This document shows, in pieces, positions 52,997 through 63,850 of a stretch of 63,850 bases of DNA (its first letter is position 1; each line of letters begins with the position of its first letter). Below the pieces are notes generated by a model that saw only the letters and a list, made by a program, of their open reading frames with translations, did no database searches and was not told the origin of the DNA. The stretch comes from Eubacterium sp. GTDB taxonomy: Bacteria; Bacillota; Clostridia; Lachnospirales; Lachnospiraceae. The translations under genes and the position numbers were made by a program. The DNA lies in the NCBI GenBank assembly GCA_017433295.1, contig JAFRHL010000042.1:1-63850 (forward strand). Reading direction: 5' to 3'.

Positions 52997-54004
52997 TTAA
53001 GAAACGACAGTATGATCCCGGCTCTGCTCTTCCTCAGGATAAGTCAGACCCCATTCACCTCTCAGCTGTGTCATGATATCCATCACATCTTTTGAATAAG
53101 CCAGTTTCATGGCTGTCGGGTCTCCATTATTAATAGCTTCCTCCATGGCAGTATGCTCATAATATAGGGCATTTTCATATTGTCCGGCACAGATCTCCCT
53201 TCGCTCTCCTGTCCGGGCATCCACAAAGACTGCCCTGTCGGCCCGGGGGAATTCCATAATCTCGATATAACCCTTCTCACAGCTGATCATGGCCCTTTTC
53301 GGCTGTTTACTGTGCATGGTAAGGGCGACCGTGGCCATCTGTCCCCCGCTGTTCTTAAGCAGGACCGTGGCCTGTTCGTCAACACCTGTCGGCGCCGCTT
53401 TCCACTGGCTTAAGACTGCGTCGGGCTTTTCATCCATAAAGCTTCGCACGATACTGAGGGCATAGACTCCTATGTCAAGCATGGCGCCTCCCGCAAGATT
53501 CCGGTTAAAGAAACGGTTACTCATATCGTAGGTCTTAAAGCTGCCGAAATTTACGGTGATCATCTGGACCTTCCCGGTCTCACCCCTTTTTACCATTTCC
53601 CATAACTCCTTGTATACGGGCATATGCCAGATGGTCATTGCTTCTGCCAGAACGAGATTTTTACTCTCGGCCAGGGCGATCATCCGGTCCAGCTCGGAAG
53701 AATTGAGGGTGATCGACTTCTCCACCAGCAGGTGCTTGCCGTTTTCCAGGGCCTTTTTCATAAATTGGAAATGAGTGTTATGGGGGGTGGTTATATAGAT
53801 AATATCTACATTCTCATCCAAGAACATCTCATCAATGCTGTTATATACTTTCCCGATACCATATTTATCGGCAAAGGCGACCGCCTTTTCATGGGTTCTG
53901 TTGGCCACAGCATACAATGATTTACCCATCTTTTTAAGTCCCGCTGCCATCTCATTGGCGATCACGCCCGTTCCCAGGACCGCCCAATTTAATTCTCTGT
54001 GCAT
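52997..54004 (-). CDS. Gfo/Idh/MocA-family oxidoreductase
   Basis: An NAD(P)-dependent dehydrogenase of about 335 residues. The Rossmann motif is WAVLGTGVIANEMAAGL (about 6-22), the EKS-type catalytic block reads LLVEKSITL, and the C-terminal alpha/beta domain includes GGAMLDIGVY. Substrate is probably a sugar or inositol derivative, not determinable here. The start at 54004 follows AGGAGGG. It is monocistronic. Confidence 0.9.
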   Translation of the reverse strand: MHRELNWAVLGTGVIANEMAAGLKKMGKSLYAVANRTHEKAVAFADKYGIGKVYNSIDEMFLDENVDIIYITTPHNTHFQFMKKALENGKHLLVEKSITLNSSELDRMIALAESKNLVLAEAMTIWHMPVYKELWEMVKRGETGKVQMITVNFGSFKTYDMSNRFFNRNLAGGAMLDIGVYALSIVRSFMDEKPDAVLSQWKAAPTGVDEQATVLLKNSGGQMATVALTMHSKQPKRAMISCEKGYIEIMEFPRADRAVFVDARTGERREICAGQYENALYYEHTAMEEAINNGDPTAMKLAYSKDVMDIMTQLRGEWGLTYPEEEQSRDHTVVS

Positions 54005-54120
54005 TTTTCCCTCCTGAATAACCAATGATATATGCTATTATCAATCGCTAATAGTCTACTGAAAAACACCCAGTTTGTCAACTTGTGGATATCACGCCTG
54101 AAGACGGATCTGTTTTCATA

Positions 54121-54171: not shown

Positions 54172-55073
54172 TTATATCACTTGACCGTCACCTTCGGTTT
54201 CCTTTGCGGTGACCTTTCCGTTTGCATCCACAGTCGCGACTGTCGGGTTATTGCTTGTGAACCTGAGAATCTTCGCATGATTTGTCGCGAGTTTCTTTTT
54301 GGTTCTTACCTTCGTCACTCTGCCCTTTATCGTCACGGTCTTATCCTTTCTTAGAGTGACAGAGATCTTGTTAAGCTTAAGGCTCTTCGGGTTCGTGTAT
54401 TTGCCCCTGTAGTATCGCAGCCCTTTGTTATTGAAGCTGCAGAGCTGTTTTCGGCCAGATGGTCTCATCTGTGCCAAAGATTTTGATGGAGAAGTTGTCC
54501 ACCACTATGGTGTCACCACTTCCGCTCTGGTCTGCGGCGATTCTCTTAGATGCGATGGACCAGTCGAGCCAGTGGTCATCCTTGAACAGGTAACTCTCTC
54601 CGGCGTTTACGACTGCTTTGTAATAGTAATTCTCTCCGATCATATCGAGCGTTTTTGAACCTTTATCAAATCCGGCATTGGCGGCATATCCGTATTTTTT
54701 ATTTCCATCGTCATCAGACAGGGTCTCGGTGCATACCACGGATATGACATCGCCTTTCTTCACATTCTGCTTTTCCCCTTTTCTATCGAACGCCGTCTCA
54801 GGCTGCTTGGCAAACCATGCGGTATGTCTCTCCGAGAGATCAAATCCCCTGCCGGTCCTGAGATCGATAGTCTCTTCATAGGTCTTACCTTCGAGAGACA
54901 GGATGCTGGACTCCGCCGCCGCCGTGCCGCCGAAAGCCCAGCAGGATCCCCATGGATCCTGTTTCTTTACCGGGGTAACAAGACCATACTTTCTCATATC
55001 ATATTTGCCTGGAAATCTTGCGGCATGCCCTGTAACAGGCACCGCGGTAAGGGCACTGCAAGAGACAACGCCT
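54172..55073 (-). pseudogene. Decayed C1-family (papain-like) surface peptidase
   Basis: The first frame (55073-54428) keeps the tail of a signal peptide (VSCSALTAVPVTGHAA) and the start of a C1 peptidase domain (FPGKYDMRKYGLVTPVKKQ, then WGSCWAF with the catalytic Cys). The catalytic His and Asn regions are missing. A frameshift or deletion near 54430-54477 leads into a second frame encoding an Ig-like beta domain (KILRFTSNNPTVATVDANG). An in-frame stop cuts the 5' end near 55075. It is a remnant of a cell-surface protein next to the prophage, and its 5' truncation may mark the integration boundary. Confidence 0.75.
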
Positions 55074-55381: not shown

Positions 55382-55846
55382 TCACAATTCTTTTTCCCAA
55401 TAAATTATCAATGCTTCTACATTCGATTCCTGAAAGACTCTGTCAATAATCTCCCTTACTTTGCCCCAATTACCTCCGGCAATTCCACAACCGATATATC
55501 CGGGGATGCACACGTCACACTGTTTCTTTTCTGCAACTGTCCTAATATCTTTAAAACATTTTTCCATGCAGGCATAATTTGTTAGACCATTATTGAAATG
55601 TTCATTCTGACAGAACATATTTGCGATTAGACCAATCTCTGTCTCACTGTATAAAACAGTCCCTAAAGCTTTTAAGCCTCTTGTGATACAGTATTTCTGA
55701 TAATCTCTGTACTGTTCCTCAGAAAGCAGCTTGTCACGGATAGAAGCTGCGACACCCCCTCCCATGACACCATGATAATTGACCTGATGACATATAATCC
55801 CATGCCCATCCCTGATAATATCTCCCATCATTTTTTTCACGCCCAT
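55382..55846 (-). CDS. Macro-domain protein (ADP-ribose binding)
   Basis: A 154-residue stand-alone macro domain, related to proteins that bind or hydrolyse ADP-ribose derivatives. The ligand loops are visible: GDIIRDGHGIICHQVNYHG (loop 1 with GGGVA after it) and IPGYIGCGIAGGNWG (loop 2). Prophage-borne macro domains may counter NAD-based or ADP-ribosylating host defences, but that is inference. It is the last gene of the small leftward operon. The GGAG site is 7 bp from its ATG. Confidence 0.85.
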   Translation of the reverse strand: MGVKKMMGDIIRDGHGIICHQVNYHGVMGGGVAASIRDKLLSEEQYRDYQKYCITRGLKALGTVLYSETEIGLIANMFCQNEHFNNGLTNYACMEKCFKDIRTVAEKKQCDVCIPGYIGCGIAGGNWGKVREIIDRVFQESNVEALIIYWEKEL

Positions 55847-58423: not shown

Positions 58424-59716
58424 TTATGGTTTGATAAGCTTCCCGGCCTTAAGCAAGGTCAGCAATTTTGTGTTCTGGGCGGCAGATCCTGAGTATGAAC
58501 TAATCCCATTCTTTGCGGCGATCTTCTTTCTGACCGTCATGGATCTGTCTCTTACTCCAACGTCTCCCAGGGCATCCACAAGGGATCCTGATTTGCCGGT
58601 GTACTTCTTATAGTAGGAAACGGCAACGGCTGCAGATGAGGCTGTGGATGTCACAGAGGGCTGACCACACACGGCGCTGTAGTCAGGTCTGCCGTATCCA
58701 AGGATCCTGGAGTATCCAGCGGTGTAGCTCTTCTCGCACACTCCGCCACCATTGTCGATGACGGATGATGCTCCGCTCGTGTTGCCTTCTACGGTATAGA
58801 CCTTGCCACCATTCACCTTATAGACAAATCCGATGTGATTTGCCCCACTGTGGCGGGTACCAGAAAAGAAGATCACATCACCAGCTTTCGGACTGGAAGT
58901 GTGATACCTTTTCTTCTTTATAAAGTTCTGTCTGATCGTCTCACAGGCAGCAGAATAAGCACCACAAAGAAGTTGTCTGCCTGCAGTATTGCCAAAGGCC
59001 GTATAGAAAAGCCAGGACAGGAAGGAAGCGCACCAATAGGTACCGTTCATACCCATCCATTTCCCATACTTTGTATAGTTGTTGCTGCCGGCATTGGCGG
59101 TCTTGCTGTCAAGGTTACTGTTAGATCTCTTCTCCAGGTATCCGACTTCACCGAATGCGATCTCTTTCAGCCAGTCCGCGGGAGCCATTGCATCCAGCAC
59201 GGTGTAGCACTCATCCCCCCACTTATCCCGATAGGCCTGTCTGGTGTATCCAAAAGGATCCACACCGGTATTATAGCCGCCTGGGAAATCATAGAAGGTG
59301 TATGTACTGCCCATCTTATTCTTGATGACGGTCTTATGTCTCTTCCACTTTGACTTGTCAGCCTTGACAGAGGTACTGCCTGTCTTGACCGTAGACAGAT
59401 CACTCATGCAGTCATGCTCATCAATGTATCTGGGAAGAGTACGCAGGCCTTCACAGAATACCTTTTTGACGATCCAGATTACAAGAGGATTTGTCGTACC
59501 TGCATTGAATCGGGCGCTTCCTTTAGCATACCACCCGGATGTCAGGACCTTTACAAGATTAGCAGCAGTTGCATGCTCATCTCCTCTAATGTCGGTACGA
59601 TTGGCGATCTGGGAGGCCTCAGCGAACCATCCTGCGATGGTACCTTGTTCATGTAAGACTATATTAGCCACGCCCCTGATCTGTTTATCGGTCAATTTAT
59701 ACTTTGGAAACTTCAT
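58424..59716 (-). CDS. Phage endolysin with CHAP and Cpl-7-like wall-binding domains
   Basis: A modular peptidoglycan hydrolase of 430 residues that opens the wall at lysis. Residues 1-105 resemble a SleB-type cell-wall hydrolase domain (GVANIVLHEQGTIAGW and ASQIANR). Residues about 185-345 form a CHAP amidase/endopeptidase domain with Cys229 (YWCASF), His294 and Glu310. Residues 366-430 match a Cpl-7-type wall-binding repeat (SLVDALGDVGVRDRS ... LLKAGKLIKP). The start at 59716 overlaps the holin gene by 20 bp, typical for lysis cassettes. Confidence 0.88.
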   Translation of the reverse strand: MKFPKYKLTDKQIRGVANIVLHEQGTIAGWFAEASQIANRTDIRGDEHATAANLVKVLTSGWYAKGSARFNAGTTNPLVIWIVKKVFCEGLRTLPRYIDEHDCMSDLSTVKTGSTSVKADKSKWKRHKTVIKNKMGSTYTFYDFPGGYNTGVDPFGYTRQAYRDKWGDECYTVLDAMAPADWLKEIAFGEVGYLEKRSNSNLDSKTANAGSNNYTKYGKWMGMNGTYWCASFLSWLFYTAFGNTAGRQLLCGAYSAACETIRQNFIKKKRYHTSSPKAGDVIFFSGTRHSGANHIGFVYKVNGGKVYTVEGNTSGASSVIDNGGGVCEKSYTAGYSRILGYGRPDYSAVCGQPSVTSTASSAAVAVSYYKKYTGKSGSLVDALGDVGVRDRSMTVRKKIAAKNGISSYSGSAAQNTKLLTLLKAGKLIKP

Positions 59717-60158
59717 CCTTATCACTATCCTTTCCAGGCACACTGCTCATCTCATCCGTCATCTCGTCCAGAAATTTCTCGATGCATTTCTTCACTTTGA
59801 GCGGGACTGGTAATTCCAGTAAAGTCATATTTTTAAGAATTGACACCGCTTCATATAAGATGAAAAGTAAACAGAAAAATTCACTCATTCCAAGTTTCGC
59901 GATACCGAGAACCTTGATATATTCTTCCGGAACCATGAACAAAGCATTGACGTGAACGATCACGTCAACGGCCATCAGGGCCACGATACTGACCAGCATA
60001 GCCACTTTACGAATGGCCCCGTCAATCCCAAAAGCGGAATTGAATTTGTGGTACTTGATTGCTCTGAGAACTCCTAAAATAGTATCCAGAACGATTGCAA
60101 TCAAAAGGATCTTTAAAAAACTGCTAGAACTTAATAATGAGACTATCTTCATAGGCAT
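59697..60158 (-). CDS. Phage holin (Phage_holin_4 family)
   Basis: A 153-residue holin of the TcdE/toxin-secretion-lysis type that permeabilises the membrane to release endolysin. Three hydrophobic segments are visible (about 12-30, 50-66 and 85-110), and the family block LGIAKLGMSEFFCLLFILYEAVS lies in the third. The tail is acidic. The start at 60158 follows AGGAGG; the preceding gene ends 11 bp upstream. Confidence 0.88.
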   Translation of the reverse strand: MPMKIVSLLSSSSFLKILLIAIVLDTILGVLRAIKYHKFNSAFGIDGAIRKVAMLVSIVALMAVDVIVHVNALFMVPEEYIKVLGIAKLGMSEFFCLLFILYEAVSILKNMTLLELPVPLKVKKCIEKFLDEMTDEMSSVPGKDSDKDEVSKV

Positions 60159-60169
60159 ATTTGAACCTC

Positions 60170-60982
60170 CTATTTCCATCGCAGGATCTCACTGATCTTA
60201 CGATTCTTGTGATAAACTTTGCTATAATCAGGCATAATACCTTTTGAATAATTACCATTAGCATGGCCGCCCTCGTACATGATGTATCCTTTGCCTGTGT
60301 AGGTAAACGTGTGAGTCACACCCTCAAAGGCGATGATGTCCCCTGGCTTCAGAAGACCAGCATCCACAGCCTGTTTTACGGTCATACCGATGGGATCGCC
60401 TTTTGTTATACGAGTAAACTTATTCTTGAAATCACCAGTATAATATGACTTAAAGGTTCCATTTGCACCGGATACCCAGGACTTCCCGTCCTTCCGTTTG
60501 ATCCCCAGGGTCTTCAGTGCCCAGCTGATAGGCACAAGGCAGGTAATCCCTACTACCTTTTTTGTGGTAACCATATCTATGACAGTCTGAAAACTGCCGT
60601 TATTTATGGCTGATACGTAGTGGTATTTAAAATATTTGTAATGGGCTTTGATGTATTCGTGGTAGGTTCCCAGATAACCCAGGAACTGCAGGACGACATC
60701 CGAGACATACTCAACATAGGCCGCATTCAAAAAGCCGTATTTGCCACCATAGCAAATGTAATACCAGATCTTCCCGTCTTCCGACAAGATTGCATCACAG
60801 ACCTCAACGACATCACCCTGCGCCAGTGGAGAGAAGGAACACAGGCTCTTGTCAGCCCCCGCCCAGTTGCGGACATTGAGCCCTTTGGCTTTCACCCACG
60901 CTTTAAAGACTGCTTTTTTACTTGGGCTCGTCTGCTCCGACAGTTTGAATATCGTCCGGCTCCCCGCTGTTATCTTCGTCAT
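60170..60982 (-). CDS. Phage wall-active protein with SH3-like and NlpC/P60-like regions
   Basis: 270 residues. Residues about 27-90 look like a bacterial SH3 domain (VKAKGLNVRNWAG and GDVVEVCDAIL). The C-terminal half (GITCLVPISWALKTLGI and LLKPGDIIAFEGVTHTF with a following HANGNY) has the layout of an NlpC/P60 cysteine peptidase with candidate Cys and His. It may be an accessory lysin or tail-associated wall hydrolase. The start at 60982 follows GGAGAG and lies inside the upstream gene by 65 bp. Confidence 0.6.
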   Translation of the reverse strand: MTKITAGSRTIFKLSEQTSPSKKAVFKAWVKAKGLNVRNWAGADKSLCSFSPLAQGDVVEVCDAILSEDGKIWYYICYGGKYGFLNAAYVEYVSDVVLQFLGYLGTYHEYIKAHYKYFKYHYVSAINNGSFQTVIDMVTTKKVVGITCLVPISWALKTLGIKRKDGKSWVSGANGTFKSYYTGDFKNKFTRITKGDPIGMTVKQAVDAGLLKPGDIIAFEGVTHTFTYTGKGYIMYEGGHANGNYSKGIMPDYSKVYHKNRKISEILRWK

Positions 60983-61268: not shown

Positions 61269-62462
61269 TCAGAGCATTAAAAAAGCACCTCCCATTGGAA
61301 GATGCTTCTTGTGTAGCAGTTTTATGTCACCCCCCGATATTATCCAGGGGTCGATGAACAGCTGATTATATAGTTTACACATATTTTGTAGAGTGTGCCA
61401 TGCGTTGAAATTCTTAGCATATGCGCTCCATGATTGAAATGACGTATAGATGTCTGTGTAAGTCATTACACCTGATTCAAGCAGTGGCACAAACTTTTTC
61501 AGTTTTCGTCTTTCCCGGACCACAGACTTTTTATATATCCGGCGTACTACTTTCCCTGTCTTTGTCAGGGTAAATCTGGTCTTCAGGAAGGTAAATCCGT
61601 GGGAAATCTTCACGATTTGCGTCTTCTTCTCATTGAGCGTGATACCAAGCTCTTTGCAGATCTTTCTGATCTCATCCATGCAGTGATGCAGATACTCTTT
61701 GCTCTCATGGATAAGATATCCATCATCCATATACCGGCCATAGCCTCTGATCCGCAGCACCTCTTTGACATAGTGGTCAAGTCGGTTTGCAGATGCCAGG
61801 GCGAATGTCTGGCTGATCTGACTTCCCAGTCCAAGGCCAATATCACCAAAGCAGTCAATAAAATGTTCTGTCAGCGCAATGATCCTTTCATCCGTGAACT
61901 GTTCCTTCATGATTTGTTTGCAAAGCTCATGGGACACATTATCGAAGAATTTTGAAAAGTCAAACAGGAGAATATAACCTTCCGTTCCATGCTTCTGGTA
62001 ATGCTCATGAAGATGCCGGCACATTCTGCGAATAGAAAAATGATATCCCCTGTTTTCCAACGATGCAGCATTATCATAGATGAAGGTCGGAGCCAACATT
62101 GGGACCAATGCATTATCGCAAAGACAGCGTTGAACAACCCTCTCAACGACTGTCACGGACTTTATATGCCGGATCTTTCCCCGTTCGTTGATATCAAACT
62201 CGTAAAAGCCGCTGGATTTGAACTTGCCTTCCTGCAGCCGGGTGTAAGTCTGATTCACCATCATCGGGGCCTGTGTGATATACTTCTGTACAGATGCTTT
62301 CCATGCCACATTCCTGCGGCACTTTTTATATGACTTATAAAGGTTGTCGTAGGAAAATACGATATCAAAGTCATCAAAACAAGCACGGCTCTGTATCTTC
62401 TTTGCCGTGCGTCTTTCAACCCTTCTCTGATATCTTGCTTCCCGTCTTTCCTCGCTTGTCAT
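61269..62462 (-). CDS. Reverse transcriptase of a diversity-generating retroelement
   Basis: A 397-residue DGR-type reverse transcriptase that copies the template repeat with errors at adenines and feeds cDNA to the variable repeat. The finger/palm motifs are visible: FDFSKFFD (167-174), LGSQISQ (212-218) and the catalytic YMDD (244-247). The LGSQISQ segment has SQ where group II intron enzymes have SP, which is the hallmark of DGRs. There is no endonuclease or maturase domain, and the length is typical. It lies directly behind the template repeat, with avd and the target gene upstream in transcription order. The ATG follows AAAGGAACC. Confidence 0.96.
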   Translation of the reverse strand: MTSEERREARYQRRVERRTAKKIQSRACFDDFDIVFSYDNLYKSYKKCRRNVAWKASVQKYITQAPMMVNQTYTRLQEGKFKSSGFYEFDINERGKIRHIKSVTVVERVVQRCLCDNALVPMLAPTFIYDNAASLENRGYHFSIRRMCRHLHEHYQKHGTEGYILLFDFSKFFDNVSHELCKQIMKEQFTDERIIALTEHFIDCFGDIGLGLGSQISQTFALASANRLDHYVKEVLRIRGYGRYMDDGYLIHESKEYLHHCMDEIRKICKELGITLNEKKTQIVKISHGFTFLKTRFTLTKTGKVVRRIYKKSVVRERRKLKKFVPLLESGVMTYTDIYTSFQSWSAYAKNFNAWHTLQNMCKLYNQLFIDPWIISGGDIKLLHKKHLPMGGAFLML

Positions 62463-62696
62463 TGTCTATAGGTTCCTTTTCTCTCTGATCACTTTTGTAC
62501 AGCTGTCGGATGGTTACATATAGCCGTATAAGGTCAGCTGGCATGAAACAGCGCATCACCATCAAGCACTGCCATGCAAGCAGCGTCCGCCAGGACCTAT
62601 CAAAAGTGTTATTTACCATGCTCTCACATGGAGGGTCTTGCTCTCCTTCTCATCCTCTTGCACTGATTTCACCACAAGGTTACTTTGTCTCGCAGA

Positions 62697-62815
62697 TGAG
62701 GATCCCACGGGGAGCGCATTAGAGTTGTTGGCGTTATTATTGTTATTGTTGCCGTTGCTGTTCACGCCATTGAAGTTATTGTTGTTATTAGCAGACCGAC
62801 ACCACCAGAACTCGG
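62697..62815 (-). other. DGR template repeat (TR)
   Basis: Read on the minus strand this non-coding segment is the donor of diversity. The stretch 62704-62815 (112 bp) aligns gap-free to the variable repeat at 63419-63530, offset 715 bp. It contains 17 AAY codons in the target's frame, giving runs of asparagine. It differs from VR at 16 positions, 15 of them template adenines. It lies between avd and the RT gene. The rest of the 390-bp gap (62463-62850) encodes no gene and probably belongs to the structured DGR RNA. Confidence 0.97.
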
Positions 62816-62850
62816 TACGTCACAGTGTATAGAACAAAACCCAAAGTAGA

Positions 62851-63255
62851 TTACACGATGTTTTTATAACGTGCCTTGTCTTTTTTCAGTGTACCTTTTA
62901 CAAGCCGAAGTTCCTTTTCTACAAGGTCCATCCAGAATTTTATGACATTCGGCTCTAATCCAAAAAGCTCATGGGCAACCTCGATCTGTGAGATGAGGCT
63001 GTTCAGTTCCGCATTTGCCCGGAGTAGATAGTCCCTCCGGAGCTGGACTTCATGGGCATTGGTCGGATAAATGCTGTTCGCCATCTTCGTGTACTGATGC
63101 ACCCGTGTAGCTGAGTTAGCAATAGGCTGCGCGATGTAAAAAGTATACCGTTTGGGGAAGCCGACACACTTCTGTATCGTATAGATCTGAAGTTGCCGGG
63201 CAGTGTGGATGAATTCCATCTCAGACTCCGCACGTTGACTTCGGATAACTGACAT
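62851..63255 (-). CDS. avd: DGR accessory protein (Avd-like four-helix bundle)
   Basis: A basic, helical protein of about 134 residues located between target gene and template repeat, as avd is in Bordetella phage BPP-1. Avd forms a pentameric barrel that binds the RT and the DGR RNA and is needed for mutagenic copying. The helices are suggested by EMEFIHTARQLQIYTIQK, VQLRRDYLLRANAELNSLI and VIKFWMDLVEKELRLVK. The ATG at 63255 is preceded by AGGTG; a GTG at 63264 behind GGAG is an alternative. Confidence 0.85.
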   Translation of the reverse strand: MSVIRSQRAESEMEFIHTARQLQIYTIQKCVGFPKRYTFYIAQPIANSATRVHQYTKMANSIYPTNAHEVQLRRDYLLRANAELNSLISQIEVAHELFGLEPNVIKFWMDLVEKELRLVKGTLKKDKARYKNIV

Positions 63256-63281
63256 TGTTTTCACCTACTTTCTCCAAACGG

Positions 63282-63287
63282 ATTATA
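63282..63287 (-). promoter_or_regulatory. Candidate -10 box for avd-TR-RT
   Basis: A perfect TATAAT on the minus strand lies about 27 bp upstream of avd, in an AT-rich segment after the terminator-like hairpin. No good -35 box stands at 17 bp, so the call is tentative. Confidence 0.35.
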
Positions 63288-63311
63288 CTTTATACAATGC
63301 AAAAATTCCAG

Positions 63312-63336
63312 AAAAATTTTCGCCGCTTACGCGGCG
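63312..63336 (-). terminator. Terminator-like hairpin between target gene and avd
   Basis: CGCCGC (63321-63326) and GCGGCG (63331-63336) form a GC-rich stem with a TTAC/GTAA loop, followed on the minus strand by AAAATTTTT. A further short stem, GGGC/GCCC, lies at about 63340-63352. Confidence 0.55.
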
Positions 63337-63365
63337 TCTGGGCGTAATGCCCCATAGGCTCCTAT

Positions 63366-63391
63366 ATCTGGCCCCACAAAGGGGGCCAGAT
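63366..63391. other. Inverted repeat just after the target gene (candidate DGR cruciform)
   Basis: ATCTGGCCCC (63366-63375) and GGGGCCAGAT (63382-63391) form a perfect 10-bp stem with a 6-base loop, 14 bp after the target stop codon and 27 bp after the end of VR. In BPP-1 and other DGRs a hairpin/cruciform a short distance downstream of VR increases retrohoming efficiency. A short ATAGG/CCTAT pair abuts it at 63354-63365. Confidence 0.75.
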
Positions 63392-63405
63392 GAACAGATG
63401 TTCGA

Positions 63406-63850
63406 TTATAGTGAGAAGCCCACGGGGAGCGCATTAGAGTTGGAGGCGTAATTAAAGCTATTGTCGCCGCTGCTGTTCACGCCATTGAAGGTACCGCTGG
63501 TACCAGCCGACCGACACCACCAGAACTCGGCGCTTGACGCGCCGACTTTCTTCTTCACACGGCTTGCACTATCAGGAAATACGCCGTCGTAAATTGGTCC
63601 CATCGTCTCTGCATTACTGATTGCCCCAAACATCTCACGCCTAGATGGAAGCCACAGATCCTCTGTGGACGGAACATCATTGACAGCTGTTCCACTTGTA
63701 TCGAATATACGTGAATACTTTGTAACCTCTTTGATAGCATTTCTAACCGTCTCAGGAATGAGGGGTTTAATAGTTTCTTTGAGGTAAGTGCGCATTTCAC
63801 ATTTCTCCCAACCACCGATAGATCCTGTTCCTTCAGCATTGTTATTATTA
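63406..63850 (-). CDS. DGR target protein with C-terminal variable lectin-like domain (partial, 5' end outside window)
   Basis: Only the C-terminal part of at least 147 residues is in the window; the frame stays open through the right edge, so the ATG at 63795 is probably internal. The visible sequence (GWEKCEMRTYL, DLWLPSRREMFG, FWWCRSA, closing ALPVGFSL) matches DUF6273-type domains, which share the C-type-lectin/formylglycine-enzyme-like fold used by many DGR targets. The variable residues fall between WWCRSA and NALPVG. The protein is probably a phage tip or fibre adhesin; a bacterial surface role cannot be excluded without the N-terminus. Confidence 0.88.
   Translation of the reverse strand, partial: NNNNAEGTGSIGGWEKCEMRTYLKETIKPLIPETVRNAIKEVTKYSRIFDTSGTAVNDVPSTEDLWLPSRREMFGAISNAETMGPIYDGVFPDSASRVKKKVGASSAEFWWCRSAGTSGTFNGVNSSGDNSFNYASNSNALPVGFSL
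63419..63530 (-). other. DGR variable repeat (VR) in the target gene
   Basis: This segment encodes the last part of the target up to eight bases before the final three codons. Against TR, 11 of 17 asparagine codons have changed to Gly, Thr, Ser, Asp, Phe or Tyr codons. The 3' end (GCGCTCCCCGTGGG, minus strand) is an invariant GC-rich block like the initiation-of-mutagenic-homing site. TR and VR diverge immediately beyond it (GGCTTC in VR against GGATCC in TR), as IMH and IMH* do. Confidence 0.96.

Follow-up and report, generated by a model that had tools for sequence, protein, structure and literature searches.

In the diversity-generating retroelement (DGR) of Bordetella phage BPP-1, the RNA of a template repeat (TR), a reverse transcriptase (RT) and Avd make cDNA that is erroneous at adenines and replaces a variable repeat (VR) marked by a 3' element and a hairpin. 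The 3' element of the VR (initiation of mutagenic homing, IMH) differs in DGRs from the copy at the TR (IMH*). We describe here a DGR with the BPP-1 gene order on a 63,850-base contig of Eubacterium sp. (GCA_017433295.1, JAFRHL010000042.1), the whole of which is referred to as the window and which belongs to a 2.9 Mb genome in 56 contigs. Sequence comparison suggests an intact-looking phage DGR in which one template serves two recipients, VR1 in the window and VR2 on a second contig of the same genome (C23), a reading to which we assign a probability of roughly 0.88.

In BPP-1 (mtd-avd-TR-brt) a hairpin also follows the VR, and both its stem structure and the sequence of its loop, a 4-nt GRNA, matter (PMC3240598). 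Viral targets of three DGR clades are mostly tail proteins (PMC8144416), and surveys cited in PMC10743442 put two targets in about 13% of DGR cassettes. The Tentaclin phages nd4 and nd12 have, like the present phage, one TR and two DUF6273 targets, but in them one target has its VR near the 5' end and carries Ig-like domains (PMC10743442). Faecalibacterium phages Lelie and CP11 have two VRs with a large and a small DUF6273 target (PMC11792537), and PMC5883640 reports DGRs in many Faecalibacterium prophages without assigning a function to the Toutatis target. As in the present phage, the small DUF6273 targets of Lelie and Toutatis lie upstream of a replication protein gene, but in these phages VR1 is downstream of the RT and the RT is only about 30% identical. 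Roseburia phage Shimadzu (LR596903) shares the order VR-avd-TR-RT, its RT is 48% identical to ours, and a 209-aa gene adjoining a DNA methyltransferase gene carries its remote second VR; it differs in that its record annotates a tail sheath, and its second target is described as a protein of unknown function (PMC11792537). In Quimbyvirus the second target lies in a methyltransferase-rich island far from the RT, and its authors suggest a role in phage-host conflict (PMC8008677); this phage, likened here from its published description, differs in infecting Bacteroides and in that its RT is spread over three overlapping frames. Publications thus already describe second VRs that are remote and close to methyltransferase genes (PMC8008677, PMC12629997). 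The two-target, remote-VR kind of DGR is a known one, to which the present, well-supported case adds a Clostridia lineage with its second target. Neither this phage lineage nor its loop class turned up in the literature searched, which took in few subscription papers and was not queried specifically for the loop class.

One template and two candidate variable repeats

The initial annotation of the window had proposed a complete DGR in a Clostridia prophage, and all four parts lie at the minus-strand place it gave, 61269-63850, in the target/VR-avd-TR-RT order that is also found in the BPP-1 record. The features are as follows.

63406-63849, minus strand: C-terminus of target 1, 147 codons (PF19789 DUF6273, E 3e-10)
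63412-63530, minus strand: VR1, at the 3' end of target 1, 119 nt alignable to the TR
63366-63391, minus strand: hairpin/cruciform-type element 20 nt downstream of VR1, with a 10-bp GC-rich stem and the 6-nt loop CTTTGT
62851-63264, minus strand: avd-like gene, 137 aa (phrog_3206 'Avd protein of DGR', E 5e-11)
62697-62815, minus strand: TR, with 17 AAY codons in the VR1 frame
61269-62462, minus strand: DGR RT, 397 aa (RVT_1 PF00078, E 1e-18; phrog_1423, E 2e-86; YMDD and LGSQISQ motifs)

Plain BLAST gives an ungapped TR/VR1 alignment of 119 nt (101 identities), and 16 of its 18 mismatches fall at TR adenines and none at VR adenines; with 38 A among the 119 positions, P is 9e-7. This agrees with the adenine-directed homing named in the initial annotation. 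The mismatches change 11 of the 17 AAY codons of the TR. The further claim that the set is contained within 2.6 kb holds for these four parts, but C23 has another VR belonging to this TR. It was the single other match in the genome to window DNA 62000-63850 (115 nt, 82%), and a relaxed pattern run over the genome fell at exactly three places, TR, VR1 and VR2, with no control hits. The core of VR2 (C23:44039-44147, 109 nt) has 19 mismatches to the TR, 18 of them at A (P 5e-8); over the 115-nt span given by plain BLAST there are 21 mismatches, 17 at TR adenines and one at a VR adenine (P 6e-6), and 13 of the 17 AAY codons are changed. VR2 forms the end of a standalone 199-aa open reading frame (ORF; C23:44034-44633, target 2), which matches DUF6273 (E 5e-8) and is separated from the RT by about 45 kb. 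The RT protein is the sole match to itself in the genome at E <= 0.001. Searches of solved-structure sequences with Avd and with target 2 returned nothing useful.

A DNA methyltransferase gene (phrog_116, E 1e-85; 84 bits to the NCBIfam dcm model, cut-off 101) precedes target 2, with 59 nt between the two. On the other side, past a gap of 56 nt, is a small gene whose single match, to HAD, is sub-threshold (17 of 27.6 bits), and next a helicase-type gene; all of these, target 2 included, are on one strand.

VR1 and VR2 share departures from the TR at their 3' ends, reading GGCTTC where the TR has GGATCC (two sites), a difference between VR and TR that resembles the IMH/IMH* pair of BPP-1. Each is also followed by a hairpin, that after VR2 having a 7-bp stem and the loop CTTGT. 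Both VRs are kept in a related virus, IMG/VR record 3300021256_000106 (G101; locus L013), whose RT is 83% identical to that of the window: 18 of 19 mismatches at its VR1 and 15 of 16 at its VR2 are at A, and both show the same 3' departures from the TR. This record also carries the DNA polymerase of the prophage (81%), and alignment to C23 covers its methyltransferase and its target 2 as neighbours but not the DNA just past target 2. We propose two recipients because adenine bias, 3' signature and hairpin are present at both VRs and both are retained in this virus.

By analogy with BPP-1, the RT with Avd would reverse transcribe TR RNA with adenines miscopied, and the mutated cDNA would replace both VR1, which closes a long probable tail-fibre gene, and VR2, which closes the gene of the 199-aa DUF6273 protein among the early genes for replication and DNA modification. 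These biochemical steps are inferred from BPP-1; this DGR copy may be active, and the very high frequency at which the initial annotation has it alter a surface protein is a prediction. One machine with two marked sites would explain the parts seen. The locus differs from BPP-1 in having DUF6273 in place of Mtd and a 6-nt CTTTGT loop as opposed to the 4-nt GRNA, and probably in having two recipients.

An RT of the group II intron or retron class, with coincidental repeats, is scarcely credible. NCBIfam does list group_II_RT_mat (TIGR04416) at 91 bits and the retron RT model NF038233 at 44 bits, but both are far below their cut-offs (300 and 235), and the adenine bias between TR and VR speaks against such an enzyme. 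Pfam finds RVT_1 and a sub-threshold viral polymerase match in the RT but no maturase domain. The best match in the Protein Data Bank (PDB) is 8ub7, 'Reverse transcriptase' (E 7e-16), which we take to be the BPP-1 enzyme. In a tree of 32 rows (16 of the 45 viral RTs, five phage and ten cellular RTs and that of the window), a 100/100 branch separates the window RT, the viral RTs and those of Shimadzu, Lelie, Roos, Dulem virus 34 and BPP-1 (Brt) from eight cellular group II-type RTs (YADD in 8/8, QGG..SP in 7/8), with the caveats that L075 drew a long-branch warning and that L045 is a fragment with a stop in frame. The DGR class of the RT, put forward in the initial annotation, is thereby borne out, and the group II intron or retron reading was rejected on the model scores and the tree. 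Two cellular RTs on the DGR side, L075 and L062, have adenine-biased TR/VR pairs of their own (13/13 and 11/11 mismatches at A). These are further DGRs, with adenine-only TR/VR differences, in genomes of the same family and the same order as the host.

The prophage and its long first target

The initial annotation had a target gene in the window, and its DUF6273 C-terminus is indeed there, but the ORF comprises only the last 147 codons of a gene cut by the contig end, the 5' part of which is on C23. In L013 the target is one unbroken ORF of 2009 aa with DUF6273 at its end, and its DNA matches C23:4840-19 and then the window from 63837 downward. On this alignment target 1 is the end of a gene of roughly 2000 aa, the full length of which was missed initially, as was the second, remote target. 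Beyond DUF6273, Pfam gives the long ORF no more than a sub-threshold Ig domain. Judging by how long it is and by its position behind the tail genes, target 1 is probably a tail fibre; it most likely contacts the host surface, and we infer that its end is the receptor-binding tip. DUF6273-like domains have been reported to be C-lectin-like (PMC10743442). A DUF6273 target beside a lysis cassette had been thought unusual, but DUF6273 targets of DGRs are ordinary and already described in PMC11792537 and PMC10743442. A separate 226-aa protein of the tail region (L166:5965-6645 on C23, minus strand) has a sub-threshold match to the Mtd N-terminal domain (19 bits, cut-off 26).

The rest of the prophage is on C23, where PHROGs matches include tape measure, tail, portal, scaffold, terminase, DNA polymerase, helicase/primase and integrase genes. 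The integrase has DNA-invertase matches and is judged to be serine-type. Its ORF overlaps the end of a tmRNA gene, beyond which lies a gene with an RNB domain (RNase R-like). Window-like DNA follows the RNase R-like gene in five of seven stretches from relatives of the same genus, starting at about 52.9 kb of the window downward in two, at 52.6 kb in two and at 48.3 kb in one; the other two stretches stop less than 2 kb past this gene. ARAGORN found a tmRNA in four of the seven. Since the fibre gene is unbroken in the relative and host synteny agrees, C23 and the window carry one prophage at the tmRNA locus. Its length sums to about 63-69 kb. The edge in the window is left unfixed because exact att repeats were not found between the two contig flanks, the longest exact match being 14 nt, in unlike positions.

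Two other arrangements were considered. An oxidoreductase gene (52997-54025) and the RNase R-like gene gave no pair of flanks: the best matches noted for them are on different contigs of relatives, and in the one closed relative they are about 347 kb apart, that to the oxidoreductase being partial. VR2 as the target of another prophage was ruled out by the single RT match in the genome and by the joining of the contigs through gene continuity and synteny.

The lysis cassette (58424..60179) lies downstream of the DGR.

59697-60179, minus strand: holin (PF05105, E 2e-22)
58424-59743, minus strand: CHAP endolysin (PF05257, E 7e-11)

This neighbourhood is ordinary too, since the BPP-1 record likewise has an endolysin downstream of brt.

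Several other features of the prophage may be recorded. The tmRNA at its edge (C23:57782-58127; L168:3782-4127) has the tag ADKTELAFAA, while four tmRNAs of the same genus have AEDNNLAYAA (three) or AEDNLAYAA (one). C23:40382-41272 (L003:6283-7173, minus strand) encodes a 296-aa phage protein that looks unusual, combining a repressor-type helix-turn-helix (HTH), sigma-70 region 4 and an RNA polymerase alpha C-terminal domain. Weak macro-domain matches of 20 and 22 bits (cut-off 22) occur at window 55382-55846 (minus strand), near the phage end of the window, and at L045:9824-10273, in the vicinity of G133's second target (a virus). A 204-aa ORF at window 54428-55042 (minus strand), not far from the prophage boundary, matches papain-family peptidases over only about the first 40 positions and is possibly a truncated gene.

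Second variable repeats in other phages

TR/VR pairs were sought around the RT of each record, and for some records also around other DUF6273 hits, with a finder score floor of 26 to 40 depending on the run. At least one pair with 75% or more of its mismatches at A was found in 34 of 45 viral loci, and some pair without this filter in 35; the finder scores A mismatches leniently and pairs were kept at >= 75% at A (70% in some runs), and the adenine bias among accepted pairs is thus partly built in. Without this filter, the best pair of L038 has 10 of 14 mismatches at A, and the top pair of L034 is an unrelated repeat. Phage records were nine of the 119 with an RT match, picked by rank, annotation or publication, and those of Roos, Toutatis, Lelie and MT835491 were scanned in part. 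A whole-genome DUF6273 search covered 11 of the 17 genome loci, with loci for 30 of 42 matches. The counts of second VRs that follow are lower bounds, many of the records being fragmentary or partly scanned.

Remote second VRs were identified in 9/45 viral records (G101, G121, G122, G124, G129, G130, G133, G134 and G135, that of G121 near a contig end), in 5/9 phage records (Dulem virus 34, Shimadzu, Lelie, Toutatis and MT835491) and in 2/11 host genomes (G148 and G151, the latter looking like the phage of G124). Early-region second VRs have nearly all mismatches to the TR at A: 15/15 in Dulem virus 34, 15/15 in Shimadzu, 15/16 in Lelie and 13/13 in Toutatis. As far as scanned, none was seen in phage records Roos, MT835543, MT835552 and MT835664.

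Comparisons between sister phages point indirectly to adenine-focused rewriting of second VRs in other phage lineages. Lelie and Toutatis have an identical TR stretch of 101 nt, while the VR2 of their small targets differs at 17 of 101 sites, 16 of them at TR adenines, compared to 12 of 547 sites elsewhere in the gene. Among four such genes, variable columns make up 27/33 of the TR adenine sites, 10/68 of the other VR sites and 68/547 of the sites outside. The VR2 of G124 and that of a sister record differ at 15 of 115 sites, 14 of them at the TR adenines of G124, and at 31 of 527 outside. Adenine-focused differences, which the initial annotation had looked to related strains for, are thus seen between sister phages as well as in the 34 viral loci selected by the filter.

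Hairpins also accompany VRs in the related phages. A perfect stem of at least 7 bp lies within 70 nt after 28 of 33 related local VRs, a few of which are near-copies of one another, compared to none of 33 TRs and 95 of 2700 random 70-nt windows. Among 15 phages with two VRs, both are followed by stems of at least 6 bp in 13, the exceptions being Dulem (5 bp at VR2) and Lelie (5 and 4 bp), and by stems of at least 7 bp in 12. The loops at both VRs are identical in 7/15, on differing stems in G101, Dulem, G122 and G148 and as part of an identical hairpin in G130, G133 and MT835491, and are different in 8/15, the window phage included. Of the 28 stems of at least 7 bp, 25 have loops of 5-6 nt and three have loops of 4 nt, one of these being GRNA. 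The hairpins therefore fit the description in PMC3240598 only partly, as most loops are of 5-6 nt and not the 4-nt GRNA. Downstream of the VR in L021 (IMGVR 3300011008_000130) the loop reads ACAAAG where the relatives of this record have the reverse-complementary CTTTGT, which would fit an inversion of the element.

Several observations weigh against an intact DGR with two recipients. No second VR was seen in 36/45 viral records, 4/9 phage records and 9/11 genomes, many of them fragments or partly scanned, and none of the 23 genomes of the same genus has a close RT (best E 6e-16). The avd-like protein scores 16 bits against the NCBIfam model DivGenRetAVD, whose cut-off is 80. The two loops of the window phage (CTTTGT and CTTGT) differ by one base, and neither is a 4-nt GRNA loop of BPP-1 type. 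In the wider span of VR2, three of the four mismatches away from TR adenines sit at its 5' edge. Together with the remoteness of VR2 from the RT, this edge and the lack of a second VR in most genomes and viral records would suit a plain single-target DGR of BPP-1 type, in which VR2 is an old recombination relic that is no longer rewritten. We consider this improbable, as VR2 has its own hairpin, the 3' signature of VR1 and 18 of 19 core mismatches at A, a virus with an RT 83% identical also keeps VR2, and second VRs of sister phages in other lineages differ mainly at TR adenines. We therefore favour one template with two recipients.

What the second target might do

Second targets lie by or near DNA methyltransferase, replication or recombination genes in the window phage, G101, Dulem, Shimadzu, G124, Lelie, Toutatis and G122, in a survey of neighbours that leaves out MT835491, G121, G130 and G135. 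The neighbour is an adenine methyltransferase in Dulem; Rep, RNase H, PemK and a cytosine methylase in G124; and a sub-threshold Rep match and a cell wall hydrolase in G122. In Lelie and Toutatis a Band_7/prohibitin gene lies upstream and the replication protein gene 2.6 kb on. Other settings are found in G129 (by a small terminase), G134 (near DUF6291), G133 (by a serine recombinase) and G148 (by DUF7659). A scan of viral sequences for relatives of the second target of Shimadzu found none.

It is possible that both VRs are live and that target 2 belongs to the virion, as another binding tip or as a decoration, its gene happening to sit away from the structural module. Both targets have DUF6273, the second targets of other phages have been proposed as host-binding virion proteins (PMC10743442), and a hydropathy scan of 12 second-target proteins (highest 19-residue mean 1.19) revealed no apparent membrane stretch, which also fits a virion protein. 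However the genes of the window phage and of Shimadzu lie, respectively, between DNA methyltransferase and helicase-type genes and between DNA methyltransferase and Erf recombinase genes, and Pfam finds no domain besides DUF6273 in target 2. Alternatively, target 2 may be an early intracellular binder, perhaps acting against host defences. We hold either role only tentatively and regard them as about equally likely, with a leaning towards the intracellular one because of the gene neighbours.

A more elaborate proposal, which we think rather unlikely as a whole, is that in Clostridia temperate phages a single DGR works on two fronts, diversifying both the adsorption tip outside the cell and a standalone DUF6273 binder that is made early within it, is retained by DNA methyltransferase and replication genes, and counters defence or blocks superinfection, with related loops on differing stems letting one RT address both VRs. 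If this were true, the early DUF6273 binder would be a phage-side counterpart of diversified antigen sensors.

When a DGR is seen on a single contig, another recipient may go unnoticed at a distance of tens of kilobases. Relatives with cultured hosts (the Roseburia and Faecalibacterium phages) make it testable why a phage would hypermutate an early, apparently intracellular protein. The present case adds a Clostridia lineage, with a close two-site relative, to the published phages whose DGR would also rewrite a gene outside the structural module.

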